From a virus: a stretch of 34,866 bases of DNA. This document shows, in pieces, positions 3,568 through 33,451 of the stretch. The translations under genes and the position numbers were made by a program. Where the stretch lies: IMG/VR virus record IMGVR_UViG_3300010354_017890, positions 1 to 34,866 of that record; one strand, given 5' to 3'. The notes under the pieces were generated by a model, which saw nothing but the letters and a program-made list of their open reading frames with translations, did no database searches and was not told the origin of the DNA. Position 1 is the stretch's first letter. Every line of letters starts with the position of its first letter.

Positions 3568-3825
3568 ATGTCTAGAATGTTCAGTGGAGAACAAAAATCC
3601 AAACTTACTCAACTTATTAACGAAGGTATTAGTGTCATGCAGGAGGTGGAAGATCTTAATGCAGGACTTAATGATACAATCAAAGCGATTGCAGAAGAAC
3701 TAGAAATTAAACCCAGTGTGCTTAAAAAAGCAGTACGCATTGCCCTAAAAAGTAAACTAGGCGAAATGAACAAAGAAAACGAAGATTTGAACACAATTCT
3801 AGAAACAGTCGGTCGCACTCTTTAA
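3568..3825 (+). CDS. dsbA: DsbA-like dsDNA-binding late transcription protein
   Basis: An 85-residue, wholly helical, charged protein with the pattern of T4-like DsbA: an N-terminal SGEQKSKL segment, a central ELEIKPSVLKKAVR helix and a C-terminal ILETVGRTL. In T4, DsbA binds double-stranded DNA and is implicated in late transcription. I recognise the family from T4-like cyanophage homologues rather than from a catalytic motif. Its ribosome binding site AAGGAG (3556-3561) lies six bases before the ATG. DNA polymerase follows directly, and the polymerase ribosome binding site begins only a few bases after the DsbA stop codon. Confidence 0.75.
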   Translation: MSRMFSGEQKSKLTQLINEGISVMQEVEDLNAGLNDTIKAIAEELEIKPSVLKKAVRIALKSKLGEMNKENEDLNTILETVGRTL

Positions 3826-3828
3826 TCC

Positions 3829-3833
3829 AGGAG
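3829..3833 (+). promoter_or_regulatory. Ribosome binding site that fixes the ATA start of DNA polymerase
   Basis: AGGAG lies six bases before the ATA at 3840, the ideal spacing. It lies only three bases before the alternative ATC at 3837, and no ATG, GTG or TTG in the polymerase frame is within reach. Confidence 0.7.
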
Positions 3834-3839
3834 ACTATC

Positions 3840-6503
3840 ATAAGTTACGTAGATGCCATTCTAGATAGGCAACGAGATCGTATTCATCTCGTAGAAAGAG
3901 TTAAAGGTCAACGAATCTATCAAGAATATCCAGTTAACTGGACTTTTTACTATGATGACCCCAAAGGCAAATATCATACCATTTACGGTACCAGAGTATC
4001 TAAATTCACTACCAAAAGTGGCAAAGAGTTTCAAAAAGAACTGCGTATGCAGGGCACTAAACGTATTTGGGAAAGCGACATTAAACCTGTATTCAGGTGC
4101 TTGGCAGATAACTATCTAGGTGCAGAACCCCCAAAACTTCAAACTATCTTTTTTGATATTGAGGTGGATTTTGATCCAGAAAAGGGATTTAGTCGCCCAG
4201 ACGATCCATTTAATCCAGTCAATGCAATCAGTCTTTATTTTACTTGGCTAGACAAATTAGTTACCTTAGCTATTCCTCCAAAAGGAATGAGCAGAGAAAC
4301 TGCAGATGAAATAGCTGCACGTCATAGTGATTGTTATATATTTGATGATGAAGAAACATTACTTGATACATTTCTTAATCTAATTGATGATGCCGATATA
4401 CTTAGCGGCTGGAACAGTGAAGGTTTTGATATACCATATCTTGTAATGCGTATCAAACGTGTAATGAGTAAAGACGATACACGTAGATTCTGTCTGTGGA
4501 ATCAATTTCCTGCAGAAAGAACATTTGAACGTTATGGCGCAACACAGATTACTTTTGATCTAGTTGGCCGTGTTCATATGGACTATATGCAATTGTATAG
4601 AAAGTATACTTATGAAGAACGTCCTAGCTATAGTTTGGATTTTATCGGCGATTATGAACTTAATGAAAGGAAAACTGCCTATGAAGGAACTTTAGATCAA
4701 CTCTACAATAAAGATTTCGATACATTTATAGAATATAACCGTCAGGATACAAGATTGTTAGCCAAGCTCGATACCAAACTAAAATTTATCGATCTAGCTA
4801 ATACGATTGCACATGACAACACTGTACTGCTACCCACAGTTATGGGTGCAGTAGCAACTACTGAACAGGCGATTATAAATGAAGCACACAGTCAAGGATT
4901 GGTCGTTCCTAATAGGAAATCAAAAGAAGAAGATGCAGGAGACACCCAAGCGGCAGGTGCCTATGTTGCTTATCCCAAAACGGGAATGCACCAAAGTATC
5001 GGCGCAATCGACATCAACAGTCTATACCCCAGTGCCATCAGAGCACTTAACATGGGACCAGAAACTATCATAGGACAACTGAAACCCATAATGACAGATA
5101 GATATATTCAAGACAAAATGAACAATGGTTCAAGTTTTGCAGAGGCTTGGGAAGGATTGTTTGGTAGTCTAGAATATACTAGTGTAATGAACGGCGAAAC
5201 CGGAACCGAAATTACTATTGAGTGGGAAAACGGTACAACTGATATCTTATCTGCAGCAGATGTTTGGCGTCTAATTTTTCAAAGCGATAAACCTTGGGTA
5301 TTAAGTGCTAACGGCACTATCTTTACTATTGAGCAAAAAGGCATTGTGCCAAGTCTACTAGAACGCTGGTATGCTGAACGTAAAGAACTACAGAAAAAAT
5401 TAAAAGAATCGATAACCGACGAAGATAAAGAATACTGGGATAAAAGACAACTTGTTAAAAAGATTAACTTAAACAGCTTGTATGGTGCTATTCTTAATCC
5501 AGGATGTCGTTTCTTCGATCAACGTATCGGACAATCCACTACACTAACTGGTCGTGTAATCGCCAGACACATGGACGCATTTGTCAATGAATGTATTACA
5601 GGCGAATATGATCATCTAGGCAAAAGCATAATCTATGGAGATACAGATTCGGTATATTTCAGCGCCTGGCCGGCTATTCAACAAGAAGTTGAATCAGGTA
5701 CTATGCAATGGAATAAAGATATTTGTATTCAACTATACGATACTATTGCCGAACAAGTAAATCAAAGCTTTCCGGGATTTATGGAACGTGCATTTCATTG
5801 CACAAGAGATTTGGGTAGTATTATTCGAGGTGGTAGAGAACTAGTTGCTAGTAAAGGTCTTTTTATTAAAAAGAAACGCTATGCAGTTCTTATCTATGAT
5901 AAAGAGGGTAAGCGCAAAGACATCAACGGCAAACCTGGCGATGTAAAAGCTATGGGCCTAGATCTTAAACGTAGTGATACTCCTAAAGTAGTACAGGATT
6001 TCTTAAGCAGTATTCTATTAGATGTGCTAACAGAAAGCGATAAAGATAAAATAATCGAACGTATACGAGAATTTAAACTAGAATTCCAGAAGCGCCCACC
6101 CTGGGAAAAGGGTACACCCAAACGTGTAAACAATTTGACCAAATATGTTGAACAGGAGCAAAAACTAGGCAAGGCCAATATGCCTGGACATGTTCGTGCT
6201 GCAATGAATTGGAATAATCTACGTAGAATGAACAGCGATAATTATAGTATGAGCATTGTAGATGGAATGAAAATTATTGTTTGCAAACTGAAAAACAACC
6301 CATTGGGATTTACTAGTGTAGCCTATCCAATCGATCTTACACATATCCCACAATGGTTTAAAGATTTGCCTTTTGACGATGGTGATATGGAAGAAACAAT
6401 CGTCGATCAAAAATTAGAAAATCTTTTAGGAGTACTTAAATGGGATATATCAGCTAGCACTAACATAAAAAACAACTTTGAGGATCTTTTTAGTTTTGAG
6501 TAA
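3840..6503 (+). CDS. 43: Replicative DNA polymerase, T4 gp43 family, with ATA start
   Basis: Family-B polymerase with proofreading exonuclease, 887 residues from the proposed ATA (T4 gp43 is 898). The first in-frame ATG (4047) would remove 69 residues of recognisable N-terminus; the frame before it reads SYVDAILDRQ and later YPVNWTFYYDDP, as I recall from cyanophage gp43 proteins. Between the in-frame stop at 3753 and that ATG there is no ATG, GTG or TTG. Motifs in full-length numbering: Exo I DIEVD (Asp106, Glu108), Exo II NSEGFD (Asp197), Exo III YNRQD (Asp303), motif A DINSLYPS (391-398), motif B KKINLNSLYGA (540-550), motif C YGDTDSVYF (599-607). All catalytic acids are present, so the enzyme should be active. 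It works with the gp45 clamp encoded downstream. Confidence 0.95.
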   Translation: MSYVDAILDRQRDRIHLVERVKGQRIYQEYPVNWTFYYDDPKGKYHTIYGTRVSKFTTKSGKEFQKELRMQGTKRIWESDIKPVFRCLADNYLGAEPPKLQTIFFDIEVDFDPEKGFSRPDDPFNPVNAISLYFTWLDKLVTLAIPPKGMSRETADEIAARHSDCYIFDDEETLLDTFLNLIDDADILSGWNSEGFDIPYLVMRIKRVMSKDDTRRFCLWNQFPAERTFERYGATQITFDLVGRVHMDYMQLYRKYTYEERPSYSLDFIGDYELNERKTAYEGTLDQLYNKDFDTFIEYNRQDTRLLAKLDTKLKFIDLANTIAHDNTVLLPTVMGAVATTEQAIINEAHSQGLVVPNRKSKEEDAGDTQAAGAYVAYPKTGMHQSIGAIDINSLYPSAIRALNMGPETIIGQLKPIMTDRYIQDKMNNGSSFAEAWEGLFGSLEYTSVMNGETGTEITIEWENGTTDILSAADVWRLIFQSDKPWVLSANGTIFTIEQKGIVPSLLERWYAERKELQKKLKESITDEDKEYWDKRQLVKKINLNSLYGAILNPGCRFFDQRIGQSTTLTGRVIARHMDAFVNECITGEYDHLGKSIIYGDTDSVYFSAWPAIQQEVESGTMQWNKDICIQLYDTIAEQVNQSFPGFMERAFHCTRDLGSIIRGGRELVASKGLFIKKKRYAVLIYDKEGKRKDINGKPGDVKAMGLDLKRSDTPKVVQDFLSSILLDVLTESDKDKIIERIREFKLEFQKRPPWEKGTPKRVNNLTKYVEQEQKLGKANMPGHVRAAMNWNNLRRMNSDNYSMSIVDGMKIIVCKLKNNPLGFTSVAYPIDLTHIPQWFKDLPFDDGDMEETIVDQKLENLLGVLKWDISASTNIKNNFEDLFSFE

Positions 6504-13857: not shown

Positions 13858-14547
13858 ATGGAAGACACAGGAATTCCACTAAGCACAGTCATTCGTAATC
13901 GTATTAGACATGCAGGTGCAAGATTTTATGCAAACGATAATATCAGTGATTATATTTATAGTGACGAAGAAATTGAAAAACTTGTAGATGAAGTCGCAGT
14001 TCAATTTAAAGGTGTTTTGAATAGTCTTGTTATCGATATCGATAATGATCATAACACACAGGACACTGCCCGAAGGGTAGCAAAAATGTTTATTAAAGAA
14101 ACATTCAGTGGACGATATAGAGCTGTACCAAAGGTTACTGCCTTTCCTAATATGGGCTATAAAAGTCTGTATACCACTGGTCCTATCAGTATTCGCAGTA
14201 CCTGTGCCCATCATTTTCAAAATATCGTGGGACAATGCTGGGTCGGAATTGTTCCTGAAGACGAAGTCATTGGACTAAGTAAATTTAATCGTATCGTACA
14301 TCATATTTGCGAACGTCCACAAATTCAAGAAGAAATGACAACTCAAATTGCTGAGGCATTAAAACAATATGCTAAAACCGAACATATTGCGGTTGTGGTA
14401 AAAGCAGAACATCATTGTATGACTCAAAGAGGTGTGCGTGAACACGAAAATGATATGGTAACTGCTATTATGTTAGGTGCGTTTGATAGTCATGCTCCAT
14501 TAAAAAAAGAATTTTATGATATTCTAAAAATGAATAGAGATAGTTAA
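13858..14547 (+). CDS. folE: GTP cyclohydrolase I
   Basis: A 229-residue FolE that converts GTP to 7,8-dihydroneopterin triphosphate, the first step of both folate and 7-deazaguanine synthesis. Zinc ligands are visible as Cys116 and His119 in CAHHF and Cys187 in HHCMTQRGV. The substrate-binding DTARRVAKMF (69-78) and GLSKFNRIV (139-147) motifs are intact. The usual Glu in CEHHF is Ala here. Most FolE proteins are close to 220 residues, so this one is full length. With queD and queE in the window it most likely feeds 7-deazaguanine for DpdA, though supply of folate for the phage thymidylate synthase and DHFR is also possible. It has its own late-type promoter element. Confidence 0.95.
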   Translation: MEDTGIPLSTVIRNRIRHAGARFYANDNISDYIYSDEEIEKLVDEVAVQFKGVLNSLVIDIDNDHNTQDTARRVAKMFIKETFSGRYRAVPKVTAFPNMGYKSLYTTGPISIRSTCAHHFQNIVGQCWVGIVPEDEVIGLSKFNRIVHHICERPQIQEEMTTQIAEALKQYAKTEHIAVVVKAEHHCMTQRGVREHENDMVTAIMLGAFDSHAPLKKEFYDILKMNRDS

Positions 14548-15304: not shown

Positions 15305-16025
15305 TATTATAAATAAAAACTTTACTATAAAATTTTTTGACAAACCTTACTCATGTTGGATTTTAGATAAATTTCTTGATGACAACTTAATTGATGCAAT
15401 TTTAGAAAATTGGTTACCAGCCGATAATCCAAATTGGCATAATGAATATAGTACAGTCGATGGGGACAAAAATCTATTAGAGCAAGGAATGAAAAGCATC
15501 AGTAAACTAGAACTGATGCCTGAATTAATTGCTAATTTACTAAAATATTTCCATAGCGACGAGTTCACAGCTTACATAGGTAAAACACTAGGTATTTCTG
15601 AACTAGTGAGCGATAAACACATGCGTTGGTCGGGTATGCGCAATATGCTGCCAAATAGTTTTCAATTAATCCACAGTGATGCTAGAAAAAGTAAAGAAAC
15701 AGGGCTACGAAAAGAATTAACCTGTTTACTATATCTCAACAAAAACTATGACAGACAACGTGATCAAGGTTGCTTGGAACTTTGGAATGATGAGATGAAT
15801 GAGTGTATACACAAAATAGAACCTATAGCCAATCGTTTAGTTATATTTGTAAATTCGGACACTGCTTATCATGGTGTGCCAGTGGTTCTATCTGAAAGGA
15901 AAGCAATTACTTTCAGTATACTTAAACAAGGAAATACAGAAGAAAGATATAAGGCACTATTTGTTGCAAGACCCAATGATTCAATAGAAGTCAAACTTCA
16001 AGGTGTAAAAAGAAGTCAAATATGA
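15285..16025 (+). CDS. 2-oxoglutarate/Fe(II)-dependent dioxygenase
   Basis: 246 residues from a GTG that overlaps the previous gene but has a near-perfect GGGAGGAG ribosome binding site (15271-15278), which decides the start. The iron ligands are visible as His130-x-Asp132 in LIHSDA and His196 in YHGVP, followed by Arg205 in ERKAITFS for binding 2-oxoglutarate. The spacing is typical of the prolyl-4-hydroxylase-like group. Such enzymes hydroxylate proteins, nucleotides or small molecules and are common in T4-like marine phages. It is followed by two sugar-nucleotide SDR genes with ATGA overlap, so a role in the same surface-modification run is possible. Substrate unknown. Confidence 0.75.
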   Translation: MTLVSGDIINKNFTIKFFDKPYSCWILDKFLDDNLIDAILENWLPADNPNWHNEYSTVDGDKNLLEQGMKSISKLELMPELIANLLKYFHSDEFTAYIGKTLGISELVSDKHMRWSGMRNMLPNSFQLIHSDARKSKETGLRKELTCLLYLNKNYDRQRDQGCLELWNDEMNECIHKIEPIANRLVIFVNSDTAYHGVPVVLSERKAITFSILKQGNTEERYKALFVARPNDSIEVKLQGVKRSQI

Positions 16026-16954
16026 TAGAAAATAAAAGAATTATTATAACAGGTGGAACCGGTTTTTTAGGTCGTAATCTAATTCGACGATTTTATAATC
16101 ATAACGAAATTACCGTGTTTAGTCGAGATGAAGCTAAACATTACTATCTAAAAAAACAATTTCCCCTAGTTAAATTTATTGCTGGCGATATTAGAAATTA
16201 TGATTTATTAACGAGAGCTTGTCGTAATCAGGACATAGGGATTTTTGCTGCTAGTTTTAAACAAATAGAAGCAGTATACGATAACTATGAAGAAGCAAAT
16301 GAAGTTATTGTTAATGGTGCCTTCAATAGTAGACGTGCTGCAGAAGATAACGATTTTACTGCGGCCTGTTTTGTCAGTAGCGATAAAAGTAGAGCTGCAA
16401 CAACAATTTATGGTGCAATGAAATTCACTGCGGGCGAAAGCTTTATTGCTAATGTTAATTCAACTAATGTTTTATTAAGTACAGCTATCTATGGTAATGT
16501 AGCCAATAGTACGGGAAGTATTATTCCTTTAATATGGGATACAATTCGTAATAATAGAAAATTGTCTTTATTCGGTAAAGATATGACACGGTTTATTATT
16601 GATATAGAACAAGCAATGGATCTAATTGAGACTTCTTTAAATTATTCAGGAGTTAATCTTATTCCTAAATTGGCCAGTCTAAAAGTTTCGGATTTATTTG
16701 AAATTTATCACGAAAAATTCGGTCTTAGATTTGAAATTAGTGAACCTAGAAGTGGAGAAAAAATTCACGAGTGTATGGCCAGTAGCGAAGAAATCAGACG
16801 TATGGATGTATTAAATGATACAACCTATATTATGTATCCTAAAATAGAAATTAATAAATTAAGTTTTCCTAACAACGAATTTAATAGTAAAGATTGGACC
16901 ATGTCTAAAGAACAGCTCGATGACTTTTTAAAACAAAGGGACTATTATCAATGA
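16022..16954 (+). CDS. Extended SDR, polysaccharide-biosynthesis dehydratase type
   Basis: A 310-residue extended short-chain dehydrogenase/reductase. GGTGFLG (11-17) binds NAD(P), and Tyr130-x3-Lys134 in IYGAMK is the catalytic pair. The preceding FVSSDKSRA segment (117-124) resembles the S-T-D-K-A region of UDP-N-acetylglucosamine 4,6-dehydratases (CapD/FlaA1/PseB group). The RSGEKIHE motif (about 242-249) further supports this group. It probably makes a 4-keto-6-deoxy nucleotide sugar. The next gene encodes an RmlD-like reductase, a plausible next step. Both neighbours overlap by four bases. Confidence 0.75.
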   Translation: MIENKRIIITGGTGFLGRNLIRRFYNHNEITVFSRDEAKHYYLKKQFPLVKFIAGDIRNYDLLTRACRNQDIGIFAASFKQIEAVYDNYEEANEVIVNGAFNSRRAAEDNDFTAACFVSSDKSRAATTIYGAMKFTAGESFIANVNSTNVLLSTAIYGNVANSTGSIIPLIWDTIRNNRKLSLFGKDMTRFIIDIEQAMDLIETSLNYSGVNLIPKLASLKVSDLFEIYHEKFGLRFEISEPRSGEKIHECMASSEEIRRMDVLNDTTYIMYPKIEINKLSFPNNEFNSKDWTMSKEQLDDFLKQRDYYQ

Positions 16955-17760
16955 TGAAAATTTTTATATTTGGTGCCAATGGTATGTTAGGCACTTATCT
17001 TTATCAATATTTTAAATCAAAATATAATGTAATACCTATTACAAGATCACAATGTGACATAGGTCAATTAACCAGTAATCAACTATTTGATCTTTTAGTG
17101 AATAAATTTAAACTAAGACAAGAAGATCTAATTATTAATGCAGCAGGAATAATCAAACAAAGAGATTTTGATCTAAGTGAATTAATTGCAGTAAACAGTT
17201 TATTTCCGCATTTATTAGCTGAGCTAAAAACAATTATTGATTGCAAGATTTTACATATCACTACAGATTGCGTGTTTAGCGGCCTCAAGGGCAATTATAG
17301 CGAATCTGATAAACATGACTGTTTGGATGAATATGGTAAAAGTAAAAGTTTAGGTGAATCGCCTCTATTAACTGTGATTAGAACTAGTATCATCGGCGAA
17401 GAAATTAGCAATAAGAAAAGTTTAATTGCGTGGTGCCAAAGTCAAAAAAACAAAACTGTTAAAGGTTATACCAATCATCACTGGAATGGTGTTACCTGTC
17501 TAGAATTATGCCATTATATACAAAAATTGATTGACACAGATAACTTTTGGTCATCTGTTAGACACGTGTACACCAAAGATTCAATGAACAAATATCAAAT
17601 GGTACAATTATTCAACAAAGTTTATAATTTAAACTTGACAATTGAGCCTGTAGAAGTTACATTGTGTGATAGAACATTAACCAGCGAATACAGCGATACA
17701 GTAATTAATAAAACTATAGAACAACAAGTTCAAGAGCAGCAAATCTTTAAATTAGACTAA
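16951..17760 (+). CDS. RmlD-like dTDP-4-dehydrorhamnose reductase family protein
   Basis: 269 residues, close to the usual 280-300 of RmlD. It has GANGMLG (8-14), NAAGI (63-67), TTDCVFSG (104-111) and the catalytic Tyr128-Gly-Lys-Ser-Lys132. RmlD reduces the 4-keto group of dTDP-4-keto-rhamnose; the paired gene upstream is a CapD/PseB-like dehydratase rather than RmlB, so the real substrate may be a UDP-sugar as in FnlB/WbjC-type pairs. The two genes overlap by four bases and probably act in sequence. The sugar could be placed on virion, DNA or host glycans. Confidence 0.75.
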   Translation: MMKIFIFGANGMLGTYLYQYFKSKYNVIPITRSQCDIGQLTSNQLFDLLVNKFKLRQEDLIINAAGIIKQRDFDLSELIAVNSLFPHLLAELKTIIDCKILHITTDCVFSGLKGNYSESDKHDCLDEYGKSKSLGESPLLTVIRTSIIGEEISNKKSLIAWCQSQKNKTVKGYTNHHWNGVTCLELCHYIQKLIDTDNFWSSVRHVYTKDSMNKYQMVQLFNKVYNLNLTIEPVEVTLCDRTLTSEYSDTVINKTIEQQVQEQQIFKLD

Positions 17761-18423: not shown

Positions 18424-18879
18424 ATGTTTCTAAAATTTTTAGACCGTTTAGGCAGAAAACGAATCGTAATGGATAGAGTAAGTGAAGAACCCTATCTAGA
18501 AAGGTATTATGTATTTCTAAAAGAAAGACAAAATTTTCCTTTTAACATCTTTTTACACAAATTTTTGAAATCAGACCCTGACGATTTACACGATCATCCA
18601 TGGCCATATGCAACACTGATACTCAAAGGTGGTTATTATGAATGGACACCAAATTTTGATAGCACAGGTAATGTTGTGGGTGAAACACGTCATTGGCGTG
18701 GGCCCGGGCACTTTCGTCTTTGCAATTCCGATTCTTACCATCGCATCGAGTTAAAAGAAGGTGTGACTGCTTGGACCTTGTTTATGCCTGGGCCAAAAAC
18801 CAAAGAATGGGGATTTTTAACAAACAATAACTGGGTTCAATGGGAAACTTATCTTAGTCAAAGACAAAAACAACTTTAA
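18424..18879 (+). CDS. Cupin-like protein
   Basis: 151 residues with a strand-rich core. DLHDHPWPYATLILKGGYYEW (55-74) resembles the first cupin motif, with His56 and His58 as likely metal ligands, and the later H-R-I-E-L segment could supply another. Cupins include dioxygenases, isomerases and sugar epimerases, but many phage members are uncharacterised. It follows the paralogue pair closely. I see no sequence feature that fixes the reaction. The cupin assignment rests on the HDHPW pattern and length. Confidence 0.55.
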   Translation: MFLKFLDRLGRKRIVMDRVSEEPYLERYYVFLKERQNFPFNIFLHKFLKSDPDDLHDHPWPYATLILKGGYYEWTPNFDSTGNVVGETRHWRGPGHFRLCNSDSYHRIELKEGVTAWTLFMPGPKTKEWGFLTNNNWVQWETYLSQRQKQL

Positions 18880-18898: not shown

Positions 18899-18905
18899 GT
18901 TGACA

Positions 18906-18951
18906 AGTGGACTTTCTGACTTTCACCCCACTCTAAATATTCTGCAAGTCA
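18906..18951 (+). promoter_or_regulatory. Possible H-type pseudoknot in the queD leader
   Basis: AGTGG (18906-18910) can pair with CCACT (18928-18932), and TGACTT (18917-18922), inside that loop, can pair with AAGTCA (18946-18951). Together they make an H-type pseudoknot with loops of 6, 5 and 13 bases. PreQ1 class I riboswitches have the same topology and often precede queuosine-pathway genes. The queD ribosome binding site AGGAGG (18966-18971) follows 14 bases later. Pairing was found by eye and no energy was computed, so chance is possible. Confidence 0.25.
18933..18939 (+). promoter_or_regulatory. Candidate late promoter (downstream) before queD
   Basis: CTAAATA 38 bases before the queD ATG. 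A transcript from here would start near 18945 and exclude most of the predicted pseudoknot, so the two late elements would give different leaders. Confidence 0.4.
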
Positions 18952-18977
18952 TCAAACTTACTCACAGGAGGCAAGAG

Positions 18978-19448
18978 ATGGCAAAAAAATATATCTCAAC
19001 AAAAACTTATAAACAAATTGGACCAGTAGCATATCGTCAATGGCGGGCGGATAGCCATTGTAATCTTATTCACGGCTATGCATTATCATTTCATTTCGAA
19101 TTCGAAACAGACACACTAGATGCACGTAATTGGGTAGTAGACTTTGGCGGACTAAAACCTCTAAAAGGTTTATTGGAAGATTGGTTCGATCATACACTAC
19201 TAGTAGCATCAGACGATCCACAAAGGGAACATTTACTTAAATTAGGCGATCTAGGTTTAGCTAAAATCACCGAAGTAGAACGCACTGGATGTGAAGGTAT
19301 CGCTAATTTTCTTTATGAATATATCAATACCTGTTTCTTAAAGGATTACGGGTGGTCTGATCGTGTTTGGTGTTCTAAAGTAGAAGTTAGAGAAACAGAC
19401 AGTAATATGGCGATGCGAGTCGGTCATAGGGAAGACAACGAATTTTAA
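18978..19448 (+). CDS. queD: QueD-like 6-carboxytetrahydropterin synthase
   Basis: 156 residues from the ATG at 18978, chosen because AGGAGG lies six bases upstream; a longer TTG frame from 18900 would run through the leader. T-fold enzyme of the PTPS/QueD family, which turns dihydroneopterin triphosphate into 6-carboxy-5,6,7,8-tetrahydropterin. Visible are Cys28 (catalytic), His32-Gly-Tyr34 in place of the usual His-Gly-His, VVDFGGL (53-59), FDHTLL (70-75), Cys105-Glu106 and VRETD (137-141). The usual first zinc His may be His27, directly before Cys28, and the third appears replaced by Tyr34. The whole RADSHCNLIHGYAL block is one I recall from marine phage QueD, so the change is probably family-wide. 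Works between FolE and QueE. Confidence 0.85.
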   Translation: MAKKYISTKTYKQIGPVAYRQWRADSHCNLIHGYALSFHFEFETDTLDARNWVVDFGGLKPLKGLLEDWFDHTLLVASDDPQREHLLKLGDLGLAKITEVERTGCEGIANFLYEYINTCFLKDYGWSDRVWCSKVEVRETDSNMAMRVGHREDNEF

Positions 19449-20750: not shown

Positions 20751-21590
20751 ATGAGCAAATTAAAAGTAAGTGAGCTTTTTTATTCAATTCAGGGCGAAGG
20801 TAGATATATGGGGGTGCCCAGTATCTTCCTAAGAACTTTTGGTTGTAATTTTACCTGTGGCGGATTCGGAATGCCAAAAGGTTCGAACAGTAGAGAACGA
20901 GATGATGTTGCAGCTAATATTAGTTTTTATGCAACATACAAAGATCTTCCTTTAGTAACTACCGGTTGTGACAGCTATGCCAGTTGGGATCCGAGATTCA
21001 AGGATCTTAGTCCTGTGCTAGAAACAGAGGGATTAGCTAATAGTATTGTAGATATGCTACCTCATAAAGAATGGCGAGACGAGCATTTAGTCATTACAGG
21101 CGGGGAACCTTTGTTGGGTTGGCAAAGAAGTTACCCTGCTCTATTAGATCATCCCAAAATGCAATCATTGAAAGAATTAACATTTGAGACAAACGGTACA
21201 CAGGATTTAACAGACGATTTTTTCGATTATCTTCATAACGATTGTCGAGTATCGGAAATCACATTTAGTGTAAGTCCAAAACTTAGTCTAAGTGGAGAAA
21301 AATGGGAAGATGCCATAAGACCGGATGTAGTATGTGACTATGCACTATTGGGTTATACCTATCTAAAATTTGTTGTATCTAGTGAACAAGATACGGAGGA
21401 AATTCAGGATGCAGTAGCAGCATATCGTAAAGCAGGATTTCGAGGCCCTGTATATCTTATGCCAGTAGGCGGAGTAGAAAGCATCTACAGTAAAAATAAT
21501 AAAAATGTTGCCGAACTAGCTATGAAACTAGGTTATAGATACAGTGATAGACTTCAGGTCCCTTTATTTAAGAATGCTTGGGGCACTTAA
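20751..21590 (+). CDS. queE: QueE, 7-carboxy-7-deazaguanine synthase (radical SAM)
   Basis: 279 residues. QueE is a radical SAM enzyme that contracts carboxytetrahydropterin to 7-carboxy-7-deazaguanine (CDG). SIQGEGRYMG (12-21) and FLRTFGC (26-32) are the standard N-terminus. The cluster cysteines appear as Cys32, Cys36 and Cys73 (in GCDSYASWD), so about 36 residues lie between the second and third Cys, where most family members have two. ITGGEPLL (115-122) binds SAM. The insertion starts GGFGMPKG and is one I recall in other marine phage QueE proteins. It is longer than the 210-240 residues of bacterial QueE, mainly because of this loop. It supplies DpdA. No queC follows. Confidence 0.9.
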   Translation: MSKLKVSELFYSIQGEGRYMGVPSIFLRTFGCNFTCGGFGMPKGSNSRERDDVAANISFYATYKDLPLVTTGCDSYASWDPRFKDLSPVLETEGLANSIVDMLPHKEWRDEHLVITGGEPLLGWQRSYPALLDHPKMQSLKELTFETNGTQDLTDDFFDYLHNDCRVSEITFSVSPKLSLSGEKWEDAIRPDVVCDYALLGYTYLKFVVSSEQDTEEIQDAVAAYRKAGFRGPVYLMPVGGVESIYSKNNKNVAELAMKLGYRYSDRLQVPLFKNAWGT

Positions 21591-28504: not shown

Positions 28505-28802
28505 CCTCAGTAAGAAACAATCTTGGCGGAAAATTATTCGTGAGGTTGAAAAAAAAGAAGTTCCCATACACGTTTTAGAAAAACTTATTGTAAATCTCAA
28601 AGACGGTACCACTGTGCCTATTGATATTAAAGAATTATTAGGCACAGGTATCGATCCAGATGTAGTGGAAGCGGAATTGAATCGCAAATTAGAATCACTA
28701 GAACAATATATACAAAACGTTGACTTCTATATAGATCTGGATAAAATTGAAGCCACTGTACAAACAGAAACAGATAAAATATTATCAAAACTTAAACTAT
28801 GA
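28458..28802 (+). CDS. Conserved T4-like phage protein
   Basis: 114 residues from the ATG at 28458; an earlier in-frame ATG at 28422 would add twelve residues that fit the family poorly. A basic N-terminus (KPKKPRLKSINL) is followed by SWRKIIREV, PIHVLEKLIVNLKDGT and GIDPDVVEAELNRKLESL, a layout I recall in T4-like cyanophages. Predicted helical with one beta hairpin. Function unknown. Ends in an ATGA overlap with DHFR. Confidence 0.6.
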   Translation: MSSQEKPKKPRLKSINLSKKQSWRKIIREVEKKEVPIHVLEKLIVNLKDGTTVPIDIKELLGTGIDPDVVEAELNRKLESLEQYIQNVDFYIDLDKIEATVQTETDKILSKLKL

Positions 28803-29296
28803 TAAAAGGCATTTTTGCAGTAGACCATTGGGGAGGAATGGGAATCAATGGCACATTACCCTGGCCACATCATTCCGAGGATCTACAATATTTCAAAGCA
28901 CAAACTGAAAATCATATTGTAGTAATGGGACGGAATACTTGGGATGACCCAAAAATGCCCAAGCCATTGCCCAAAAGAATCTGTTATGTTGCAACTAATC
29001 GACCTATACCCACATATACCAGGATAATCACAGGCAATATCGTTGATCAAATTAAAAATATTCAAATTATATTTCCTAAACTTCATGTTTGGATAATAGG
29101 TGGTCCAAATTTACTATTGCAGACAAGAAGTCTATTAGATGAACTACATATTAGCCATTTTAAAGCAGGTTACAAAACAGATGCTAAATTAGATCTAAAT
29201 AAATTTTTATTGGGATTTAGAGTAATCAGCAGTAAACCTAGCACTGATAGAGACTGTAACTGGATGGTATACAAAAACATTGACCTGTTTAGATAA
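28799..29296 (+). CDS. frd: Dihydrofolate reductase
   Basis: 165 residues, the standard DHFR length. MGINGTLPWPHHSEDLQYF (14-32) carries the Trp and acidic residue of the folate site, VVMGRNTWDD (41-50) binds NADPH, and WIIGGPNLL (97-105) is the second cofactor loop. It regenerates tetrahydrofolate used up by thymidylate synthase, encoded 19 bases downstream, as in T4 where frd and td are neighbours. Its last codons overlap the -35 box of the td promoter. Confidence 0.9.
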   Translation: MIKGIFAVDHWGGMGINGTLPWPHHSEDLQYFKAQTENHIVVMGRNTWDDPKMPKPLPKRICYVATNRPIPTYTRIITGNIVDQIKNIQIIFPKLHVWIIGGPNLLLQTRSLLDELHISHFKAGYKTDAKLDLNKFLLGFRVISSKPSTDRDCNWMVYKNIDLFR

Positions 29297-29308
29297 TTCT
29301 AATATAGT
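29280..29308 (+). promoter_or_regulatory. Sigma-70-like promoter, probably giving a leaderless td mRNA
   Basis: TTGACC, a 17-base spacer and TATAGT (29303-29308). The expected start, seven bases after the -10, is 29315, the A of the td ATG. No ribosome binding site lies before that ATG. Confidence 0.55.
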
Positions 29309-29314
29309 ATATCT

Positions 29315-30211
29315 ATGAAACAATATCATGACGCATTACGATTTGTACTAGAGAATGGCACTGTAAAAAACGATCGAACTGGCCTCGGGACCATTAGCGT
29401 ATTTGGAATGCAACAACGCTATAACCTAGCTCAAGGTTTCCCGGCTGTGACAACTAAAAAACTTGCTTGGCGTTCTGTAGTAGGAGAACTTCTTTGGTTC
29501 ATTGAAGGTTCCGGAGACGAACGTAGATTAGCTGAAATTACTCACGGATCAAGAGAGGGCACAGTTACTATATGGACGCCCAATGCTTTAGCTTCTTATT
29601 GGAAACCCAAAGCACAATTTGACGGCGATTTAGGTAGAATCTACGGTGTGCAATGGCGTAAATGGAGACAATATAGGGAACGAAAAGATATGGGAGATGC
29701 ACATCTTGGCGGTACCCGTATAGCAACAGATCGTTGGGAAATAGATCAACTTAAGATCTTAATCGAAGGTATTAAGAAAGATCCTAATGGTAGGCGACAT
29801 ATTCTTAGTGCCTGGAACCCAGCAGAGCTAGAAGATATGGCTTTGCCCCCCTGCCACGTAATGAGTCAGTTTAATGTAACAGATGGTAAGTTGAGTTGCC
29901 AAATGTATCAGCGTTCGTGCGATATGTTTTTAGGTGTACCTTTTAACATTGCATCCTACTCACTTCTTACACATATGATTGCTCAAGTGTGCGGATTAGA
30001 TGTAGGTGAGTTTGTTCACGTTCTCGGGGACGCCCATATATACAGCAATCATATAGAGCAGGTTAAAGAACAACTAACACGTGAACCATTGCCTGCTCCA
30101 ACTTTATACCTAAATCCAGATATTAAAGATATTGATCAATTTACAATGAAGGACATTGAACTACGTAATTATACTAGTCATGGTCCGATTAAAGCAACTA
30201 TGGCTGTATGA
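29315..30211 (+). CDS. td: Thymidylate synthase (ThyA type)
   Basis: 298 residues. Converts dUMP to dTMP with methylenetetrahydrofolate. Visible: the phosphate-binding Arg21 in NDRTGLGT, GELLWFIEG (57-65), the RIYGVQWR motif (108-115), catalytic Cys180 in LPPCHVMSQF, QRSCDMFLGVPFNIASY (199-215) and the C-terminal HVLGDAHIYSNH. No intron is present, unlike T4 td. It works with the DHFR upstream and the dCMP deaminase at 33023-33451, which supplies dUMP. The lack of a leader suggests an unusual initiation mode. Confidence 0.95.
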   Translation: MKQYHDALRFVLENGTVKNDRTGLGTISVFGMQQRYNLAQGFPAVTTKKLAWRSVVGELLWFIEGSGDERRLAEITHGSREGTVTIWTPNALASYWKPKAQFDGDLGRIYGVQWRKWRQYRERKDMGDAHLGGTRIATDRWEIDQLKILIEGIKKDPNGRRHILSAWNPAELEDMALPPCHVMSQFNVTDGKLSCQMYQRSCDMFLGVPFNIASYSLLTHMIAQVCGLDVGEFVHVLGDAHIYSNHIEQVKEQLTREPLPAPTLYLNPDIKDIDQFTMKDIELRNYTSHGPIKATMAV

Positions 30212-30453
30212 CAAAATTAGTTGTTCACGAATTTAATATGGGCGATGTGGAGGACATTGAGATTTACGCTGCCGAGCCCATCTATCAATGGCAACAAACA
30301 GAAAAAGGTAAATGGGTTATGCAGCATAGTATCGACCCGCCTACTTGGCATCAAGGGCTTGACCCCACTATGTATGGTTGGCGTATAAGAATTGTAGCGG
30401 AATTTTCAGATAAGGATCTTACCTATTATACTCTTAAATGGGCATCAGTATGA
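30208..30453 (+). CDS. Small conserved T4-like phage protein
   Basis: 81 residues, in an ATGA overlap with td. The pattern VVHEFNMGDVED, IYAAEPIYQWQQTEKGKWV and a Pro-Pro-x-Trp-His stretch is one I recall in T4-like cyanophages, where it also lies near nucleotide metabolism genes. Strand-rich, no catalytic motif. Function unknown. Overlaps the following SDR gene by four bases. Confidence 0.6.
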   Translation: MTKLVVHEFNMGDVEDIEIYAAEPIYQWQQTEKGKWVMQHSIDPPTWHQGLDPTMYGWRIRIVAEFSDKDLTYYTLKWASV

Positions 30454-31466
30454 AAATTCTAATAACCGGAGGTTTAGGTTTTATTGGCCATAATGTTGTA
30501 TCAAGACTTGAACAACAGGGTCATGATTGTCTTATAATTGACAATACTACAGATTACGGATTGTTAAATCGACAGGAACTAGATTTTGTTCTTGAACAAA
30601 GAACAAAACAAATTAAATTTAGTGCATTAGATCACAGTGACATACTGAACAATACACACATTAGTAGTTTAATTGAAGTATTTAGGCCTGACTGTGTTGT
30701 GCATTTAGCAAGTTATCCTAGACAGAAAATAGTTAATAAAAATCCCAAATCTGCACTACAAGTAATGGTGACGGCATTAATGGATCTTTTATCTAGTTGT
30801 AACAGATTCAATGTAGAAAAGTTTGTATATGTCAGTAGCAGTATGGTATACGGCGATAGTTTTAAAGATTACAGTTTTATTCCAGAAAATGCACCGTGTC
30901 GACCTAAAGGTTACTACGCGATTTGGAAATATACTGGTGAACTTTTAGTCAAGGATTGGGCCAAAACGAATAAAAAAAACTATATTATCTGTCGTCCCAG
31001 TAGTGTTTATGGCGAACGTGATGTTACAGATAGAGTGGTCAGTAAATTTATCTATCAAGCATTTAATAATGGCATTTTAGAAATACGAGGTCATCGTGAA
31101 ATAATGGACTTCACTCATGTTGATGATTGTGCAGATGGGATCGTTTTAGCTACAATTGGATCACATAGTAACTATACAGTGAATTTAACACGCAGTGATA
31201 CTAAGTTATGGACAATTGAAAATGCTGCAGATCTAATTATTGACAAAATAGGATTGGGTACTAAACAAATAGCGGATCGAGATCCGTCATTTCCGCCAAG
31301 GAGTAATTTAGATATTAGATTAGCTAGGAAATTGCTATCCTACGATCCCAAAATTAATTTAGATAAAGGGTTAGATAGATATATTGACTGGTTTCGCACT
31401 AATCATTTTATGCCTATCAACATAAATCTACTAAATCCCCAAGTAGGATATTCAAACTGCATTTGA
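30450..31466 (+). CDS. NAD-dependent epimerase/dehydratase (extended SDR)
   Basis: 338 residues from the ATG at 30450 in an ATGA overlap; an ATG 12 bases earlier is in frame but lies inside the preceding gene. ITGGLGFIG (5-13) binds NAD, VVHLASYPR (83-91) follows strand 4, SSSMVYG (129-135) and Tyr156-x3-Lys160 form the active site, and CRPSSVYG with DFTHVDDCADG are typical of UDP-glucose 4-epimerase-type enzymes. It probably epimerises or dehydrates a nucleotide sugar. It is the last plus-strand gene; its 3' end overlaps the convergent minus-strand gene by 64 bases. Confidence 0.8.
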   Translation: MKILITGGLGFIGHNVVSRLEQQGHDCLIIDNTTDYGLLNRQELDFVLEQRTKQIKFSALDHSDILNNTHISSLIEVFRPDCVVHLASYPRQKIVNKNPKSALQVMVTALMDLLSSCNRFNVEKFVYVSSSMVYGDSFKDYSFIPENAPCRPKGYYAIWKYTGELLVKDWAKTNKKNYIICRPSSVYGERDVTDRVVSKFIYQAFNNGILEIRGHREIMDFTHVDDCADGIVLATIGSHSNYTVNLTRSDTKLWTIENAADLIIDKIGLGTKQIADRDPSFPPRSNLDIRLARKLLSYDPKINLDKGLDRYIDWFRTNHFMPININLLNPQVGYSNCI

Positions 31467-33022: not shown

Positions 33023-33451
33023 TCAAACTTTAGAGACATTAATTTTACAATTTTGTAAAAAATCTAGTCCAGCAGTTGATCTATACTGCTCTCTATAATA
33101 AACTTCTTTAATGCCAGATTGATATATGCCCTTAGCACATTCTAAACAAGGACTATGAGTGATAAAAATACTAGCATCATTTCCACTTTCTGTGCTTTTA
33201 GCTAATTTCATTAAAGCATTCATTTCGGCATGTAACACTTCAGATCTTGTTTTGCGTTCTTGAGTTCCGTCTGAATTACATATGGTATATTCACATACAT
33301 TATCCCAACCAGAAGGCATACCGTTATATCCGATACTAATAATTCGATCATCTTTAACTACAATGGCACCAACTTTAAGTCTTTCAGCATGACTTAATTC
33401 TGCAAATCGTTGTGCCACATCCATGTATGCAAGAATAAATTTTGATTTCAT
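33023..33451 (-). CDS. cd: Deoxycytidylate (dCMP) deaminase
   Basis: 142 residues. Converts dCMP to dUMP, the substrate of the phage thymidylate synthase. The zinc site is complete: His74-Ala-Glu76 in LHAEMNAL and Cys102 and Cys105 in PCLEC. GYNGMPSGWDN (41-51) is typical of dCMP deaminases, and Cys53 and Cys58 may form part of the second zinc site known in the T4 enzyme. It is shorter than T4 gpcd (193). It lies on the minus strand although its pathway partners frd and td are on the plus strand. Confidence 0.9.
   Translation of the reverse strand: MKSKFILAYMDVAQRFAELSHAERLKVGAIVVKDDRIISIGYNGMPSGWDNVCEYTICNSDGTQERKTRSEVLHAEMNALMKLAKSTESGNDASIFITHSPCLECAKGIYQSGIKEVYYREQYRSTAGLDFLQNCKINVSKV

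Follow-up and report, generated by a model that had tools for sequence, protein, structure and literature searches.

Expression-limiting weak starts are already known in bacteria, as is translational control of gp43 in phage T4. In Escherichia coli, the genes infC and pcnB start at AUU; in Staphylococcus aureus, infC, ccpN and citZ start at AUA and cvfC1 at AUU (PMC13009471). The AUA and AUU starts of S. aureus yield about 10% of the expression obtained with AUG (PMC13009471). The Streptomyces gene sigR has a GTC start and is repressed by IF3 (PMC5472188). In T4 and RB69, the DNA polymerase gene gp43 is under autogenous control, exerted at translation initiation through an operator (PMC3014915).

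The stretch of DNA analyzed here, further termed the window, comprises the 34,866 nucleotides of the IMG/VR virus record IMGVR_UViG_3300010354_017890. Its gp43-type polymerase gene shows the features typical of infC, pcnB and sigR: a non-canonical codon at a conserved start site, a good Shine–Dalgarno (SD) sequence and conservation of this codon in relatives. As in infC, pcnB, ccpN, citZ and cvfC1, AU is combined with a mismatched third base (PMC13009471). Those genes, however, are bacterial, whereas the gene considered here encodes a phage replicative polymerase; in gp43, moreover, AUC occurs as well, and gains or reversions of the trait have been numerous. The likeness to sigR lies in the coupled operon and in a weak start that would keep the level of a potent protein down (PMC5472188), but the codon is different, and the response to IF3, demonstrated for sigR, is putative for gp43. 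In the openly licensed literature searched, no description of a phage polymerase with an AUH start was found.

Initiation Codon of the Polymerase Gene

The gene is located on the plus strand (3840..6503, +) and encodes a gp43-type family B DNA polymerase of 887 aa. Its product matched the PHROG 262 profile (E 1.5e-196), the Pfam domains DNA_pol_B (PF00136) and exo1 (PF03104) as a full-length match, and RB69 gp43 chains in the PDB. Judging from the alignment with the Met codon of relatives, this replication polymerase very probably starts at AUA (ATA, 3840..3842, +) instead of AUG. The codons following ATA, namely AGT TAC GTA GAT, encode SYVD. The SD sequence AGGAG (3829..3833, +) is separated from ATA by the six-base spacer ACTATC (3834–3839), the aligned spacing of 5 being typical of the ATH class, and the last three bases of the spacer form an ATC codon (3837..3839, +), resulting in a tandem AUH AUH. 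After the stop at 3753 the polymerase frame stays open, its first table-11 start being ATG 4047; the absence of ATG, GTG and TTG between these points, asserted in the original prediction, was borne out by the sequence. The sequence and the alignment also confirmed that AGGAG lies six bases before ATA, at the position of the relatives' Met. A small gene upstream of the polymerase (3568..3825, +), assigned to phrog_12534, has a weak match to transcriptional regulator phrog_639, DsbA-like; its stop is located 14 nt before ATA.

Among 80 close IMG/VR relatives, the aligned start codon is ATG in 71, TTG in 4, GTG in 1 and ATT in 1, while 3 have ATG one codon further downstream. In the cultured relatives examined, no non-ATG start was found, and ATG was present wherever the start could be placed (in LR756508 it could not). 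The nearest relative, L121, is an independent contig with a polymerase about 90% identical to that of the window; its start site is also ATA, and ATA is retained across the whole L112/L118 clade. Comparison of codons 2–69 (3843–4046) between the window and L121 revealed changes at 33 of 41 synonymous and 6 of 163 nonsynonymous sites (pS 0.80, saturated; pN 0.037). Because synonymous change is saturated and replacements are few, this region is coding and under strong purifying selection. An in-frame stop is located 12 nt 5' of ATA in L121, and therefore the start there is GAG, AAT, ATC or ATA, unless codon 114 is used.

Distribution of AUH Starts in the gp43 Family

IMG/VR was searched with an N-terminal polymerase signature in which ATH replaced Met. 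Counting that of the window, this ATH-requiring pattern gave 44 distinct gp43 genes whose start site is ATA, ATC or ATT, a number selected for ATH rather than a share of the family. Besides the window and L121, 42 distinct genes thus have AUH at this position. Two samples drawn without the pattern contained one ATH gp43 gene among 80 each. An SD sequence is present in all 44 ATH genes, nearly always well placed, and in 42 of them in-frame DTG is absent between the upstream stop and the start site. In Genome_contigs, the search for ATH gp43 gave 24 pattern matches, none of which was a polymerase.

Control scans of IMG/VR with BNH, AVN and CNG at the start site, which together with the ATH and DTG scans covered all but six codons ([GT][ACG]G), gave 18, 2 and 0 pattern matches, none of them a polymerase. 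These three control patterns had one additional Asp codon; 26 of the ATH genes also fit this stricter pattern. A DTG scan of the same site showed DTG codons among the matches listed. The start-site codons seen in the scanned set are represented only by codons beginning with AU, together with GUG and UUG. This set agrees with the published finding that, in vitro, codon bases 1 and 2 require Watson–Crick pairing and base 3 is relaxed (PMC10158994).

On a FastTree phylogeny of 256 polymerases, built with the start codon left out, ATH changed at least 21 times, with 17 changes forced by supported branches; the corresponding figures for an IQ-TREE subset of 84 are 19 and 15. Overall, the AUH trait changed at least 15–21 times on the tree, gains not being distinguishable from losses. 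Dozens of related phages appear to have reached AUA, AUC or AUU at the same site independently, apparently as a device for low polymerase levels. The view that AUA starts are very rare holds in general but not for the gp43 family, in which AUA, AUC and AUU starts recur many times.

SD Spacing

In AUG-started gp43 genes with an SD sequence, a spacing of ≤3 was found in 105 of 146 cases; for other AUG genes of these phages the corresponding figure is 27 of 436. The ATH and UUG gp43 genes mostly have a spacing of 5–6, and the window combines AGGAG with its six-base spacer, i.e., a good SD sequence with suitable spacing. In phylogenetically independent pairs, the association of a weak start (AUH or UUG) with normal spacing scored 15.4 for and 0.1 against (median p 6e-5), and that of ATH alone 10.0 to 0.6 (p 0.006). 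This trade-off between spacing and start codon suggests that selection has tuned the initiation rate to a low level; alternatively, weak codons may simply need better spacing to function. The tight spacing of AUG in gp43 is due in part to leaders shared within clades.

Leader Elements Upstream of gp43

An operator-like hairpin with the loop GCYNNAAR immediately precedes or covers the SD region of gp43 in leaders L029, L046, L067, L133, L384 and approximately 140 others. When the 8-nt loop GCYNNAAN alone was used for selection, the three inner stem positions paired in 102, 104 and 104 of 107 distinct leaders; the stems contain several pair types, with pairing far above that of shuffled sequences, indicating covariation. 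No Rfam family was matched by this hairpin. It is present in 112 of 183 AUG leaders, 21 of 40 UUG leaders and 12 of 44 ATH leaders. ATH leaders thus lack it more often than the others (Fisher p 0.0007), but this link loses its significance in phylogenetically independent pairs (median p 0.22). In the window leader, no hairpin with this motif was found, and the fold is no better than that of shuffled sequences.

The comparison with T4, whose gp43 represses its own translation, is apt for the family, many members of which carry the hairpin, but the window itself lacks it. The T4/RB69 operator and the phages studied here share the gene, control at translation initiation and an upstream hairpin with AA in its loop, which many of the window's relatives possess (PMC3014915). 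The loop of the relatives (GCYNNAAR) differs, however, from the UAAC type of T4, and binding of gp43 to it is putative.

A second recurring element, located upstream of the hairpin, consists of GAGTCG, a short stem-loop of variable stem sequence and CATG (in leaders such as L133, L110, L374 and L097). In L006, L007, L008, L068 and their relatives, the stop codon of the small gene upstream shares bases with the gp43 start (TAATG, ATGA, TTGA), which suggests translational coupling. In some relatives, what looked like a leader ORF of four codons before gp43 is the C-terminal end of the gene upstream.

Gene-Specificity of AUH Starts

In other genes of the same loci, no credible ATH start was found among 627 homology-placed starts, as compared to 38 of 276 for gp43, a set in which the search itself had favoured ATH. 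When the starts were counted again with the neighbour filter removed, 13 in other genes looked like ATH, and each of these has a DTG nearby. In the loci carrying ATH gp43, 98 other starts are DTG. Genome-wide relaxed initiation is consequently unsupported by the 627 starts. A phage-encoded tRNA for AUA was also rejected as an explanation: none was found in the window, and in three ATH phages the tRNA candidates able to read AUN have only the anticodons CAU (Met) and GAU (Ile). With respect to RegA-type control of the AU-rich context, PF01818 was unmatched in 20 records, the control being uninformative.

Alternative Explanations

AUH could be the true start and yet merely tolerated, being near-neutral and having no regulatory value. 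This is unlikely. The low frequency of ATH in the two pattern-free samples is in line with it, as are AUH genes that sometimes adjoin AUG- or UUG-started sisters on the tree, but against it stand the confinement of AUH to gp43 among the neighbour genes tested, the recurrence of the trait on the trees, its pairing with normal SD spacing, the context GGAGAATTATY-ATH that recurs in otherwise unrelated leaders, and the retention of ATA although synonymous sites are saturated.

Were the in-frame AUC 3837 used for initiation, alone or along with AUA 3840, the protein would gain one residue; this is considerably less probable. Of the 44 ATH genes, 26 have an ATH codon immediately 5' of the start, compared with 10 of 183 AUG genes (phylogenetic pairs, 11.4 to 0.7, p 0.003) and roughly 5–11% of AUG genes in general that have normal SD spacing; in addition, AUC 3837 sits at the spacing which relatives use for AUG. 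However, the upstream ATH is absent from 18 of 44 ATH genes, in none of the genes detected by the scans is the Met site occupied by a non-start codon, and the SD spacing of AUC 3837 in the window is just 2–3.

There is hardly any probability left for a truncated protein initiated at ATG 4047 (Met70; 4047..4049, +) or another downstream DTG. Although this ATG is the first regular start in the frame and the Pfam domains would stay intact, codons 2–69 are conserved, 69 conserved residues would be lost, no SD sequence precedes it, and Met70 is replaced by Ile in L121, where the first DTG is codon 114, also without an SD sequence; in L112 the first DTG is codon 150. The assignment of the gp43 frame start to ATA 3840, made in the original prediction, is strongly supported by this replacement and by ATA in the independent contig L121.

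A sequencing or assembly error is just as implausible: a single transition from ATG to ATA would suffice, but ATA occurs independently in L121, and other contigs contain ATC or ATT, requiring transversions. Frameshift fusion with the upstream gene is ruled out by the in-frame stop of L121.

Other Genes of the Window

Genes for GTP cyclohydrolase, a QueD-like and a QueE-like protein were found at 13858–14547, 18900–19448 and 20751–21590, respectively; this set suggests 7-deazaguanine synthesis and, possibly, DNA modification. Genes for dihydrofolate reductase, thymidylate synthase and dCMP deaminase are located at 28799–30211 and 33023–33451. PHROG 540 (nucleotide-sugar epimerase) was matched three times (16022–16954, 16951–17760 and 30438–31466), two of these genes being adjacent. 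A cysteine dioxygenase-like gene, unusual for a phage, is present at 18424–18879.

Proposed Mechanism and Significance

The reading that we favour, and consider likely, is that the polymerase starts at AUA 3840 and that AUH, which recurs and persists in this family and is specific to gp43 among the neighbour genes tested, acts as a constant brake on translation. Low polymerase expression would be the best interpretation of the gene-specificity taken together with the SD-spacing trade-off. The AGGAG sequence would position the ribosome at AUA 3840, and fMet-tRNA would read this codon via the AU match with a mismatch at the third position. Such near-cognate initiation is expected to be inefficient and discriminated against by IF3, which may set the size of the penalty, as for sigR; by analogy with the AUA and AUU starts of S. 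aureus, the efficiency is perhaps a tenth of that of AUG. Recruitment through the normally spaced SD sequence would be good and recognition of the start weak. Coupled re-initiation after the upstream stop, 14 nt before ATA, may contribute. Relatives may reach the same low set-point in other ways: through a tightly spaced AUG, a UUG start, an overlap between gp43 and the gene upstream, or the operator-like hairpin. More speculatively, and rather doubtfully, AUH, often tandem and behind GGAGAAUUAUY, could be a convergent brake replacing the gp43 operator hairpin in lineages that lose it, the polymerase dose then being set by host IF3 or growth state, not by gp43 feedback.

Weak-start control, so far represented by a handful of bacterial genes, would thus be extended to a phage replication enzyme. 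Gene callers limited to ATG, GTG and TTG shorten these polymerases or miss the true start. The repeated occurrence of AUA, AUC and AUU at one essential phage gene, together with compensating spacing, would provide a natural series for the evolution of a translation set-point.
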